From Gammaproteobacteria bacterium (GTDB taxonomy: Bacteria > Pseudomonadota > Gammaproteobacteria > SZUA-140), in contig JAKISP010000009.1 in assembly GCA_021648525.1 (NCBI GenBank), positions 1 through 64,000 on the forward strand: 64,000 nucleotides of DNA, written 5' to 3'. The position numbers and the translations under genes are program-made. How positions within the stretch are numbered: the first letter of the stretch is position 1; each line of letters begins with the position of its first letter. Shown in pieces: positions 7,852 through 12,110 of the stretch. Under the pieces are notes generated by a model that worked only from the letters and a program-made list of their open reading frames with translations, searched no databases and was not told the origin of the DNA.

Positions 7852-8172
7852 TTACAGAGCAAGAATGAAGTCTACCAGTGTATCGATGTTTGCATCAGTA
7901 ACACGTGGTGAGTATGGAGGCATTGGAACGCCACCGGTTACGTCATTCCAGTTACCTTTACCACCTTTTTTGACTTTAGCAATTAGCGCATCTCTGTCTC
8001 CAGCGCTATATTTGGCAGCAACATCTTTCCATGCTGGGCCAACTACTTTTTTCTCGATGCTGTGACATGCCAGGCAACCGCTCTTCTTAGCAAGATCCAG
8101 GTCGGCAAAAGCCTGACTTGAGCCTAGCATTAAGAGAGCCGCGGCAGGAACGCTTAACCAACGTGCTTTCAT
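7852..8172 (-). CDS. Periplasmic cytochrome c551/c552-like protein
   Basis: A 106-residue small class I cytochrome c. The signal peptide is cleaved after SSQAFA. The single heme site CLACH is at residues 33-37 and the likely Met ligand is in VPMPPYSPRV near the C-terminus. Small soluble cytochromes of this type carry electrons between periplasmic complexes and terminal oxidases or reductases. I place the start at 8172 because GAGGAGA lies just upstream; a longer in-frame start at 8190 would make the ribosome site itself coding. It is monocistronic, with its own terminator. Confidence 0.93.
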   Translation of the reverse strand: MKARWLSVPAAALLMLGSSQAFADLDLAKKSGCLACHSIEKKVVGPAWKDVAAKYSAGDRDALIAKVKKGGKGNWNDVTGGVPMPPYSPRVTDANIDTLVDFILAL

Positions 8173-8718
8173 ACTTTTCTCCTCATTCAAGGGTATTTAA
8201 TGGATAAAACAGTTATAGACTCTCCCCTCTGAAAATCTGTAACAGCAACCCCCCCCGATATGCATTTCTCTCTACAGAAACCCTAATGCGGGGGAGTCAG
8301 CAATATGTCTCACATGTGGTGAGTATTACCAGCGCTCTTTTATGCCACGCCGAATAGCGGGTGTCAAGCCTGGTTCAGCAGGGGTTCAGTTAAACTGTAG
8401 TTAAAAATACTCATTTTGTGATTTTCCTCACAATTAAGCACCTCTGGGATTATTTTACCCCCAAAATTCCCCTCCAGAGTTACTGTTAATAATAGATATT
8501 GAATTTTAGCTGAATAGGATGCTTAATAAGCATCGTTAATACCGACTAAATTCATCGGTTATTTCTGCATTAATCGTGTGGTTTTATATCCGTTTATTTA
8601 TATGGGATTTTGCTTTTTTCTGGATGAATTGAGAAAGCAGTGCTTTAAGGGCATCACGTTGTAAACAGGTTATAGGGGGAGGGCTATCTTAGTAAGCAAT
8701 TTAAACTGGGTAGGTGGT
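8173..8718. other. Divergent intergenic region without a gene
   Basis: About 545 bases between the cytochrome c gene (minus) and the FGE-like cluster (plus). I see no coding frame of credible composition. It holds AT-rich promoter-like DNA, a 17-base dyad (8518-8534, listed separately) and a GGGGGAGGG purine run at 8675-8683 that may be a ribosome site. Confidence 0.6.
8518..8534. promoter_or_regulatory. Perfect 17-base dyad, possible operator
   Basis: GATGCTTAATAAGCATC is an 8-bp inverted repeat around one central base. It lies in the divergent region about 200 bases before the FGE-like gene and 345 before the cytochrome gene. Dyads of this size commonly bind dimeric regulators; no regulator is encoded next to it. 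Confidence 0.35.
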
Positions 8719-9717
8719 GTGTTCGTTACGGTAGTCATATCGTTGGCATCTGTTTGCATTCAGGTGGATCTGGTTAATGCTGATCAGCAAGCATGTCAGA
8801 CCTGTCACACGGGTATGAGCCATCCAGCGGTTGAACGGAAGAGACTGGCAGCCTGTATTAGTTGTCACGCAGGGAGTGAGGCTGACAGGGGCATCATGAC
8901 AGCGAGTCATTCAGCGCATCAGCAAGTGGATTTTACTAGCAGTAATAAGACGGCTGGGTTTGCACCAGGCATGCATTTGCCGATGACTTATGAGACGACG
9001 CGGATCGGTCGGCAAGCCAATGAGATGGTATTGATCCCTGCCGGTGAATTTACCATGGGTTCAGATAAGCGTTTGCCAGATGAGGGGCCTGAGCATCGGG
9101 TGCTGCTGGGGGCATATTGGCTGGACCGTTACGAGGTCACTAACCTGCAGTACAAACAATTTATCGATGCTACTAACCGCAAGTCACCTCGCCATTATGA
9201 AAACAGGACGTTTCCAGATGGCCTGGTTGACCATCCTGTGGTGTATGTCAGCTGGTACGATGCCACTGACTATTGCGCCTGGGTTGGTAAGCGTCTACCG
9301 AGCGGGGCTGAGTGGGAAAAAGCGGCACGAGGAGATGATGCAAGGATTTATCCGTGGGGCAACGAGTTTGATATTACTCGCGCTAATATGCCGCAGCGCT
9401 GGAAAACGTTGAAACAGGCAGGTGGTACTACGCCAGTCGGTGCGTTTAAAGAGGGGGTGAGTCCCTTTGGTCTGTACGACATGTCTGGCAACGTATGGGA
9501 ATGGACATCATCCTGGTACGAAGCCTATCCGGGCAATCAAAAGCCAACAGAAAATTACGGTCAGACTTATAAAACGTTAAAAGGTGGCTCCTGGTGGAAT
9601 TGTAGTTTCTACAAATGTGGTGTATCTGCACCTGCATTCAATCGGTCATTTTTTTTACGCACCACACGAAATAAAAGTTTTGGTTTTCGTTGTGCGAAAG
9701 ATTCAGAGGAGAAGTAA
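8719..9717 (+). CDS. Exported FGE-sulfatase-domain protein with two CxxCH motifs
   Basis: A 332-residue protein. After an export signal come CQTCH (26-30) and CISCH (46-50), which look like c-type heme sites. From about residue 90 there is a formylglycine-generating-enzyme (SUMF1/FGE-sulfatase) domain: IPAGEFTMGSD, DRYEVTNLQYKQFI, PVVYVSWYDATDYCAWVGKRLPSGAEWEKAARG, YPWGNEFD, DMSGNVWEWTSSWY and GFRCA. Near its end C295 and C300 have the C-x4-C spacing of the copper-binding pair of true FGE. The GTG at 8719 has no ribosome site; GGGGGAGGG lies about 36 bases upstream in an open frame, so the real start may be a non-standard upstream codon. It ends one base before the ATG of the next FGE-like gene. 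Confidence 0.85.
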   Translation: MFVTVVISLASVCIQVDLVNADQQACQTCHTGMSHPAVERKRLAACISCHAGSEADRGIMTASHSAHQQVDFTSSNKTAGFAPGMHLPMTYETTRIGRQANEMVLIPAGEFTMGSDKRLPDEGPEHRVLLGAYWLDRYEVTNLQYKQFIDATNRKSPRHYENRTFPDGLVDHPVVYVSWYDATDYCAWVGKRLPSGAEWEKAARGDDARIYPWGNEFDITRANMPQRWKTLKQAGGTTPVGAFKEGVSPFGLYDMSGNVWEWTSSWYEAYPGNQKPTENYGQTYKTLKGGSWWNCSFYKCGVSAPAFNRSFFLRTTRNKSFGFRCAKDSEEK

Positions 9718-9718
9718 G

Positions 9719-10702
9719 ATGAAATCTAATCTTCTATCAGGGTTAAGCATGAGTATTGGTTTGTTGACGGTGCCGTTAGCTGGCTTTGCACTGGAGGGTG
9801 TGGCAACGAGTGCTGATCAGGAGATGAAGCTGATACCCGCGAGTGAATTCATTATGGGCAGTAATAAGGCAGATAATAACAATAGTTCAGGTGAATATGG
9901 CAATGCCAAGCCGTGGTATCTGGATGAGCACCCTAAGCATAGCCAATATCTGGATGGTTTTTATATTGATGAGCACGAAGTGACCAATGGTCAGTTTAAG
10001 GCGTTTGTCGCACAGAAAAATTATGCACCACCTCAGTATTGGGTCAACAATGGTTATCTGTTGAGTCTGCGGAGAAATAAGATCGAGGCGGTCTCGGTTG
10101 AAAAAATACGACGACTGGCGGTGAAGGTAATGCGGCTTGATATCGATACACGGAAGATGACGAAGCCTGAATTGTTGGCTGTGATCGATAAGCGCTTTGC
10201 CTATATGGACTGGTTACCCGTGGTTTATGTTAGTTGGTATGATGCAAAGGCTTATTGTGACTGGAAAGGGAAGCGGTTACCGACAGAGGCCGAGTGGGAA
10301 AAATCAATTCGAGGCGATAAGGGGCTAGAGTTTGCCTGGGGTAATCAGTGGGCATATGGCCAGAGCAATACCGGCGAAGAGATGTGGGATGATGGGGTGG
10401 CACCGGTCGGCTCCTATCAGGGGGACGTTTCACCGTTTGGTGTGCTTGATATGAGCGGCAATGTGTCGGAGTGGACCGCGGACTGGTATCAGGCGTATGA
10501 AGGATCAGATTATACAAGTGAGGATTTTGGCGAAATATTTAAAGTGGTGAAAGGCGCCGCCTGGGGGGGGGACGGTCATTACGCACTGAAACTGTTTCAA
10601 CGCGGCGCGTATCGATATAATTTGAAGCCAGAGTCGCAGCATGAAGACCTGGGCTTTCGCTGTGCTGCTGATGTTAAGCTTGCTGGCGTTGAGGCGAAGT
10701 AG
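9719..10702 (+). CDS. Second exported FGE-sulfatase-domain protein
   Basis: A 327-residue protein with signal peptide (MKSNLLSGLSMSIGLLTVPLAGFA) and an FGE-sulfatase domain: LIPASEFIMGSN, IDEHEVTNGQFKAFV, VVYVSWYDAKAYCDWKGKRLP, FAWGNQW, DMSGNVSEWTADWY and LGFRCA. At the place where the first protein has C-x4-C, this one reads WGGDGHYALKLFQRGA with no cysteine, so it is probably not an oxidase but a binding or structural member of the superfamily. An insert of about 60 residues (roughly 100-160) precedes the VSWYDA block. I start it at 9719, one base after the previous stop, with GAGGAGAAG upstream; an in-frame start at 9584 would run through the end of the previous gene. Confidence 0.87.
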   Translation: MKSNLLSGLSMSIGLLTVPLAGFALEGVATSADQEMKLIPASEFIMGSNKADNNNSSGEYGNAKPWYLDEHPKHSQYLDGFYIDEHEVTNGQFKAFVAQKNYAPPQYWVNNGYLLSLRRNKIEAVSVEKIRRLAVKVMRLDIDTRKMTKPELLAVIDKRFAYMDWLPVVYVSWYDAKAYCDWKGKRLPTEAEWEKSIRGDKGLEFAWGNQWAYGQSNTGEEMWDDGVAPVGSYQGDVSPFGVLDMSGNVSEWTADWYQAYEGSDYTSEDFGEIFKVVKGAAWGGDGHYALKLFQRGAYRYNLKPESQHEDLGFRCAADVKLAGVEAK

Positions 10703-10769
10703 CGTAGTGGTTCACGCCTGAGATAGATCCCTGTTAACATGGTTTTTTGCCAATAGAAAGACAGGACCT

Positions 10770-12110
10770 ATGATGAATCGCCACTGTGTCACATTATTAT
10801 TGCTAGCACTAATTTTTGCAGGTTACACAAAACAGGTTTCGGCACTGGCGGTATGGATTCCAGGTTGGCAGCAAGCGAGTGAAATGAACAGTGCGCGCGC
10901 AGGTGCATCGATATTGCAGGTGAATGGTGTGATCTATGCCATTGGTGGTATCAATGGGCATGACTTTCTCAACACCACGGAATACAGCAAGATTAACCCT
11001 GATGGCACGCTTGCCCCATGGAAGCGCAGTGCCATTCTTAATGACGCCCGTGGTTTTTTTGACGCGGTTGAGCACAATGGTTTTATTTATGCAGCCGGTG
11101 GTGGCAAGGGCGAAAACGGTAAAATATTGTTGCGCAGCGTAGAGCGCTCGCGGATTTCAGAGAGTGGTGCACTTGAAGGGTGGATTACGGAGCGCTACAG
11201 GCTGCAATATCCGCGTCGTTGTGTGAAACTGTTTGTCGCGAATGAACGTCTTTATGCGTTAGGTGGTTTTGCTGGCACACTGCTAGATTCGGTTGAAAGT
11301 GCACCTATCAATCAAGATGGTAGTCTGGGACGATGGCGTGCCGAGACAAACCCACTCACTATGGCGCGCTACATCAATAGCGTGAAATCACTAAACGGGT
11401 TTGCCTATGTGATGGGTGGCCATGCAGAGAGCGAAGGCGTTGGTTTGACCGAGGTTGAATTTACTCTGCCATCAATTGCTGATGAACTGGTCTGGAAAAA
11501 AACGACGCCGATGCAAGCGCCTCGCTATGGCCTTTCATCTGCAACACATGGCAAGCAGTTGTACGCGATAGGTGGCCTGAATGGGGCGCGCTATTCCGAT
11601 AAGATTGAAGTGACTCAGCAAGCGGATGACGGTGAACTGAGCGAGTGGCGTTATACAACCCCACTTTCATCAATGCGCGCAAACTTTGGCAGTGTGGTTT
11701 ATAACAACCAACTCTATATTATTGGTGGCACTAACCGTGATGGTTATTATAAAACGGCAGAATACGCCAGCCTGGATGAGCGTGGCGATATTGGATTCTG
11801 GGGGACGCAACAGCAGTTAAAAGATTACCAGCAGCAGCAACAGGCTCGGCTATCAAAGCCCAAACGCAAACTGCCGAATAGTGGCGTGGTTGCGGAAGTG
11901 ATTCAGACCAGGGCCTATAGTTATATTCGAGTGGTAAAAGGTGTCACCGAGCAGTGGATTGCAGGTTCACGTGAAGCGTTTAATGCGGGTGATCCGATTG
12001 AATATAGCCGTGGCACGACAATGGCAAATTTTCACAGTTCAACACTGAATCGTACCTTTGATTCCATTATCTTTGTTGAGCATCTGCGCCTGGGTGATGG
12101 CCAGAAATAG
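10770..12110 (+). CDS. Exported Kelch-repeat protein
   Basis: A 446-residue protein with a signal peptide (MMNRHCVTLLLLALIFAG...VSA). Six Kelch blades are readable by their hydrophobic-hydrophobic-x-GG cores (IYAIGGINGH, IYAAGGGKGE, LYALGGFAG, AYVMGGHAE, LYAIGGLNG, LYIIGGTNR), each followed by a conserved W about 20-25 residues on, enough for one closed propeller. After the propeller come a Gln-rich stretch (QQLKDYQQQQQ) and a C-terminal region of about 90 residues of unknown type. It sits 67 bases after the second FGE-like gene on the same strand and probably belongs to the same envelope function. The substrate is unknown. Confidence 0.88.
   Translation: MMNRHCVTLLLLALIFAGYTKQVSALAVWIPGWQQASEMNSARAGASILQVNGVIYAIGGINGHDFLNTTEYSKINPDGTLAPWKRSAILNDARGFFDAVEHNGFIYAAGGGKGENGKILLRSVERSRISESGALEGWITERYRLQYPRRCVKLFVANERLYALGGFAGTLLDSVESAPINQDGSLGRWRAETNPLTMARYINSVKSLNGFAYVMGGHAESEGVGLTEVEFTLPSIADELVWKKTTPMQAPRYGLSSATHGKQLYAIGGLNGARYSDKIEVTQQADDGELSEWRYTTPLSSMRANFGSVVYNNQLYIIGGTNRDGYYKTAEYASLDERGDIGFWGTQQQLKDYQQQQQARLSKPKRKLPNSGVVAEVIQTRAYSYIRVVKGVTEQWIAGSREAFNAGDPIEYSRGTTMANFHSSTLNRTFDSIIFVEHLRLGDGQK

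Follow-up and report, generated by a model that had tools for sequence, protein, structure and literature searches.

We examined a window of 64,000 nucleotides from a contig of a gammaproteobacterial genome, in which two adjacent genes encode exported proteins with the fold of formylglycine-generating enzyme (FGE). Gene 1 joins an N-terminal diheme c-type domain to a domain of this fold, and gene 2 encodes a paralogue without the Cys pair that gene 1 carries; a gene for a Kelch-repeat protein follows. All three open reading frames lie at the positions given by an earlier analysis of the letters of the window (hereafter, the sequence-only reading), and their coordinates are collected in Table 1. 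The ATG of gene 2 is located inside a longer open reading frame, one base past the stop of gene 1, which makes the two genes close in translation. We call proteins of the gene 1 type D, for diheme, and those of the gene 2 type G, for their G-x-G-H-Y loop.

Table 1. Features of the locus, in positions of the window
Feature	Coordinates	Strand	Evidence or remark
Gene 1 (type D), exported diheme c-type domain + FGE-fold (PF03781) domain	8719..9717	+	Pfam, homologue alignment
Probable signal peptide, gene 1, weak, start codon uncertain	8719..8781	+	Sequence, orthologue comparison
First heme-attachment motif, gene 1, C26-Q-T-C-H30	8794..8808	+	Invariant 36/36
Second heme-attachment motif, gene 1, C46-I-S-C-H50	8854..8868	+	Invariant 36/36
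FGE-fold domain, gene 1, residues 100-327 (FGE-sulfatase, PF03781)	9016..9699	+	Pfam E 2e-62; VIA Z 26-28
Active-site-loop signature GGSWWNCSFYKCGVSAPAFNR, gene 1	9583..9645	+	C295 at 9601-9603, C300 at 9616-9618
Gene 2 (type G), exported FGE-fold paralogue without Cys pair	9719..10702	+	Pfam; same 28/369 genomes as D
G-x-G-H-Y loop, gene 2, residues 284-288, at position of gene 1 Cys loop	10568..10582	+	Invariant
Kelch-repeat protein, neighbour in this genus only, outside conserved module	10770..12110	+	Pfam, locus comparison
Divergent monoheme cytochrome c, candidate electron partner	7852..8190	-	Pfam Cytochrom_C E 3e-9

Architecture of the two FGE-fold proteins

The sequence-only reading had been staked on the conservation of the two CxxCH motifs in orthologues of gene 1. 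Both motifs are invariant in the 36 homologues compared, whose identity extends down to about 45% and which include two Deltaproteobacteria. The C-x4-C pair formed by C295 and C300 is likewise invariant in 35 of 35 homologues, the 36th being cut by a contig end. Judged from the alignment, the conservation of the CxxCH motifs and the Cys pair is far above chance, and this invariance indicates that an architecture of two hemes and a Cys pair is real and strongly constrained. The 59 members of the D family are monophyletic in our tree. D also keeps two family cysteines, C186 and C325, that align with Cys218 and Cys365 of human FGE, which form a structural disulfide (PMC4505483). C295 and C300 are therefore an additional pair, situated in the loop that builds the active site of FGE-fold enzymes; this loop (residues 289-312) is among the most conserved parts of D.

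Residues 16-69 of gene 1 give weak matches to multiheme Pfam families (E-values of 6e-4 to 6e-3), all under the curated cut-offs. The spacing of the two CxxCH motifs, roughly 20 residues with His nearby, resembles that in the Cytochrome_C7, MtrC-like and Multi-haem_cyto domains; unlike these, D is predicted to carry two hemes only, and its heme domain is fused to an FGE fold. The genome encodes CcmH, a protein of heme attachment. Signal-like N-termini are found across the D family, and that of the copy in the window is weak. Its exact N-terminus is uncertain, as a GTG start leads to a hydrophobic signal lacking a charged n-region. The region of the start (window positions 8680-8725) looks eroded, with GTA in the window versus ATG in the closest orthologue. 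In the structure models, the low-confidence parts are the heme linker and the active loops of both D and G. The linker between the diheme and FGE-fold domains of D (residues 54-80) is modeled with a pLDDT below 50 and is presumably flexible.

For gene 2, PF03781 is the only Pfam match (E-value 9e-53). As the sequence-only reading had observed, this protein has no counterpart of C295 and C300, and its only cysteines of the family are C180 and C315. The same reading took gene 2 to be non-catalytic, a description not supported here, given the loop occupying the position of the Cys loop: G284, G286, H287 and Y288 are invariant in the G-type alignment, so the Cys loop has been replaced by an invariant GHY motif and has not decayed. 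The G model superimposes on human FGE with a VIA Z-score of 23.5 (root-mean-square deviation 3.0, 223 residues aligned). When profiles are compared, D is closer to G (43% identity, E-value 5.6e-85) than to FGE (38%, 3e-61). The human paralogue of FGE that has no catalytic cysteines, SUMF2 (pFGE), offers a parallel to gene 2 (Z-score 23), in that an FGE fold without the Cys pair accompanies a Cys-bearing paralogue; however, gene 2 belongs to a separate bacterial clade that has the invariant GHY loop.

Relationship to formylglycine-generating enzyme and its relatives

It is important to separate the fold of D from its descent. D resembles FGE (SUMF1) in fold, with 38% identity over 221 residues, and its model aligns with human FGE (1y1e) over 221 residues at a VIA Z-score of 26.8 and a deviation of 2.7. 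It also shares a C-x4-C motif following GGS. FGE activity depends on Cys336, Cys341, Ser333, His337 and Tyr340 (PMC4505483). In ungapped alignments S291 and Y298 of D, both invariant or nearly so, fall on Ser333 and Tyr340, but His337 is not kept. The loop of D reads GGS-x3-C-x4-C-x21-GFR, compared with GGS-x2-C-x4-C-x20-GFR in true FGEs, so that the pair in D has an additional residue both before and after it. Both MAFFT and hmmsearch place C295 and C300 one residue (+1) off Cys336 and Cys341, and HHalign matches C295 to the second cysteine of FGE. The sequence-only reading had likened the pair to the copper site of FGE. The likeness extends to the conservation of the pair, its loop and its internal spacing, but not to its register, which is shifted according to all three methods.

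The identification of gene 1 as an FGE does not survive phylogenetic analysis. In a tree calculated with the loop columns removed, a branch with an SH-aLRT support of 98 separates D, G and many Cys-less homologues from true FGEs. With the same columns removed, a clade uniting D with true FGEs is rejected (log-likelihood 103.7 lower, p-AU 5.4e-5). Given the position of D outside the FGE clade, the simplest explanation is that its Cys pair arose independently in the loop used by FGE; we adopt this as the parsimonious reading, the alternative being that the pair was lost repeatedly in lineages other than D and FGE. As far as trees and alignments can tell, D has the FGE fold but does not belong by descent among the formylglycine-generating enzymes. 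D further differs from FGE in its N-terminal diheme domain, in its obligate GHY partner (see below) and in its genomic setting, which lacks a sulfatase. The sequence-only reading had noted that there is no sulfatase gene nearby, and this extends to the whole genome, which is 99.9% complete: its two PF00884 proteins, one EptA-like and one LtaS-like, are both without the CxPxR motif. The idea of a true FGE serving a sulfatase encoded elsewhere in the genome was rejected for this reason.

Several other groups of FGE-fold proteins invite comparison. The best structural matches of the D model are ToxD (VIA Z 28.4) and CalU17 (27.7), which, like PvdO, belong to natural-product pathways; these are members of the broad family whose functions are other or unsettled, and unlike D and G they have no heme domain and no conserved partner of the GHY type. 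EgtB (27.6) represents the sulfoxide and selenoneine synthases EgtB, OvoA and SenA, in which the FGE fold is the C-terminal domain. However, neither D nor G has a Pfam match to the DinB-type iron domain of these enzymes, and the N-terminus of gene 1 is instead diheme. Finally, NirV is an FGE-like protein often encoded beside nirK (PMC4770552), and is similar to the present proteins as an accessory-looking FGE-like protein of respiratory bacteria; unlike the case of NirV, we noticed no nirK beside D and G in the loci read, although no search aimed at nirK was made.

Pairing, distribution and genomic context

We searched genomes with profiles built in this analysis, scoring the best few candidates per genome. 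Full-length D and full-length G occur in an identical set of 28 of the 369 genomes of the class, spread over 12 families. Two further genomes emerging from the D search have partial matches to another FGE type only. The formal probability of such co-occurrence is about 1e-42, which is too optimistic owing to kinship among the genomes. Of 56 non-redundant loci with room to judge, 54 have G directly downstream of D, as recognised from its motif in 48 and by inspection in 6. The two genomes in which D has no adjacent G carry G elsewhere (G083 and G313). This exact match over 12 families, together with the unlinked cases, points to D and G being obligately co-inherited partners. The comparative data thus bear out the combination that the sequence-only reading had picked out: a heme-linked protein of the FGE fold in which a Cys pair is conserved and, linked to it, a second protein that shares this fold.

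The housekeeping loci at which lone G genes are found (mutY, yjbQ/ankyrin) are of the kinds that harbour D-G pairs in other genomes. These shared locus kinds suggest that D was lost repeatedly, leaving G behind. One example is a lone gene for a G-type lipoprotein (G000:C53; L024:7041-8117) that adjoins mutY, the site of a full D-G pair in other genomes, and here D seems to have been lost.

D is rare and patchy. A sample of 397 other genomes from across the phylum contained no D, and outside the class we know it from two Deltaproteobacteria (L052, L053) and one probable Nitrospirae case (L054), which is cut by a contig end. The named full-length matches are all metagenome-assembled genomes (MAGs), and the names of some point to marine or vent samples. 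In one of the Deltaproteobacteria (L052:7840-8682) and in the Nitrospirae MAG (L054:885-1772), the G-type gene is followed by a third FGE-like gene, whose loop reads KGGSWGLSH; L054 has two FGE-like genes downstream. On this basis, the operon may originally have encoded three proteins of the FGE fold.

The synteny of three genes that the sequence-only reading envisaged applies to genes 1 and 2, but not to the Kelch gene. The latter encodes a Kelch propeller (Kelch_1, E-value 2e-27) whose C-terminal part, residues ~357-446, has no Pfam match. A conserved three-gene unit was rejected, as the Kelch gene adjoins D-G only in the genus of the window and travels separately. In other genera (L190-L193), Kelch orthologues lie beside a DUF255/DsbH thioredoxin-like protein (PF03190), possibly as a separate functional pair.

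No neighbour gene is common to D-G pairs or lone G genes, whose contexts include mutY-yggX, yjbQ/ankyrin, aroKB, purF, tilS, nusA, YbaK-like genes and others. In both Deltaproteobacteria, a gene for a monoheme cytochrome is directly upstream of D, and differs from the cytochrome in the window. Some individual loci contain respiratory genes. An FGE-like gene (L023:4932-5987, G000:C66) is part of a cbb3-type oxidase-like cluster with COX1, FixO-like, monoheme cytochrome and ccoG-like genes, and its FGE type recurs in many Gammaproteobacteria (E-value ~1e-48). In one deltaproteobacterial locus (L053:5843-7730), norC and norB are downstream of the genes for cytochrome c, the diheme-FGE protein and an FGE lipoprotein. 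A lone G-type gene in G259 (L200:4028-6943) adjoins a CcoN-like open frame of 971 amino acids with three CxxCH motifs. A link to NirS-dependent denitrification was considered and dropped, as no positive link appeared: cd1 nitrite reductase occurs in 0 of the 28 D-positive genomes versus 73 of the 341 others (p 0.002), a difference that is hard to interpret given kinship.

Possible functions of the D-G pair

Because the genes for D and G are always together, the proteins look like halves of one redox enzyme; they look like an undescribed one, and not like a sulfatase activator. Our preferred explanation, to which we give about an even chance, is that D and G are two subunits of an exported oxidoreductase module in which the hemes wire a dithiol or metal site of D. 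D and G would form a heterodimer, with the diheme domain of D carrying covalent heme. This tethered domain would shuttle electrons between cytochromes of the periplasm and the site of the Cys pair, where C295 and C300 might act as a metal (copper-like) center or as a dithiol/disulfide center. D and G together could then carry out the oxidation or reduction of a thiol, a protein or a small molecule in the periplasm, and G might be either active itself or a structural partner. We favor such a two-subunit oxidoreductase on account of the extra Cys pair, the diheme linker, CcmH, the upstream monoheme cytochromes and the electron requirement of FGE. With regard to the last point, FGE needs O2 plus an external reductant, and has been assayed with added thiols (PMC4505483). 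Given that FGE chemistry takes electrons beyond O2, it makes chemical sense for a redox enzyme of this fold to have a diheme donor tethered to it. 

There are caveats that count against this explanation. An extra His is present near the CxxCH motifs in 58 of the 59 D members, but its position varies and there is no fixed distal heme ligand. The Cys loop of the D model has low confidence (pLDDT ~57). G copies outnumber D copies in several genomes, so the ratio is not strictly 1:1, and the neighbours of D-G in the loci examined are housekeeping genes that indicate no pathway.

Three other explanations were weighed. D might be a heme-powered formylglycine-generating enzyme: a Cu-dependent Cys oxidase that acts on a target other than a sulfatase and draws the two electrons required by FGE in each turnover from its diheme domain, with G serving as a partner that resembles SUMF2. 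The reductant requirement of FGE fits this idea, as do the C-x4-C motif and the equivalents of Ser333 and Tyr340, and the missing cd1 nitrite reductase would fit aerobic life without proving it. However, the Cys pair is out of register, many Cys-less lineages lie between D and the FGE clade, and the genome offers no CxPxR sulfatase, so that we regard this explanation as quite improbable. It is also conceivable, although unlikely, that the FGE folds are non-catalytic scaffolds that position a diheme cytochrome for electron transfer or docking, with C295-C300 as a structural disulfide. The models here are PorK/GldK, an FGE-fold ring protein of the type IX secretion system (T9SS), and the variable lectin-like proteins. 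FGE folds do act as scaffolds, D matches PorK (VIA Z 23) and TvpA (VIA Z 24), and the diheme domain by itself accounts for a cytochrome role. Yet the conserved 289-312 loop of D and the invariant GHY loop of G are typical of active sites.

An explanation that we consider distinctly unlikely is that D-G is a maturation or accessory factor, which assembles or repairs a heme-copper enzyme or another periplasmic or membrane respiratory redox enzyme; a role of this sort has been guessed for the NirV encoded near nirK. In the tree, the FGE-like protein of the oxidase-like cluster, which is in the same genome, is among the nearest relatives, and this explanation can also draw on norC and norB in L053 and the CcoN-like gene in L200. 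However, most D-G loci have no respiratory neighbour, and the place of the oxidase-cluster protein relative to D versus G differs between two trees.

Returning to the exported oxidoreductase, a bolder version of it is that D-G is a new cytochrome-wired enzyme of two FGE-fold subunits, in which an independently evolved Cys-x4-Cys site, of metal or dithiol type and fed by its own diheme domain, is combined with a GHY site on the other subunit to perform an undescribed periplasmic redox modification, the substrate being a thiol, a protein or a small molecule. We put this forward only tentatively, and think it somewhat more probably wrong than right. Targeted searches of the open-access literature found no description of a heme-linked FGE architecture, which is weak evidence of absence.

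The co-occurrence of D and G over 12 families represents an unrecognised protein pair, hidden beneath generic FGE-family labels, and its carriers are some marine-type Gammaproteobacteria. Since D has a Cys-x4-Cys motif at the FGE-site loop without belonging to the FGE clade, annotation based on motifs would be misled. Moreover, D would allow experiments on how an active site of this kind is wired, as it combines the FGE fold with a diheme donor of its own.

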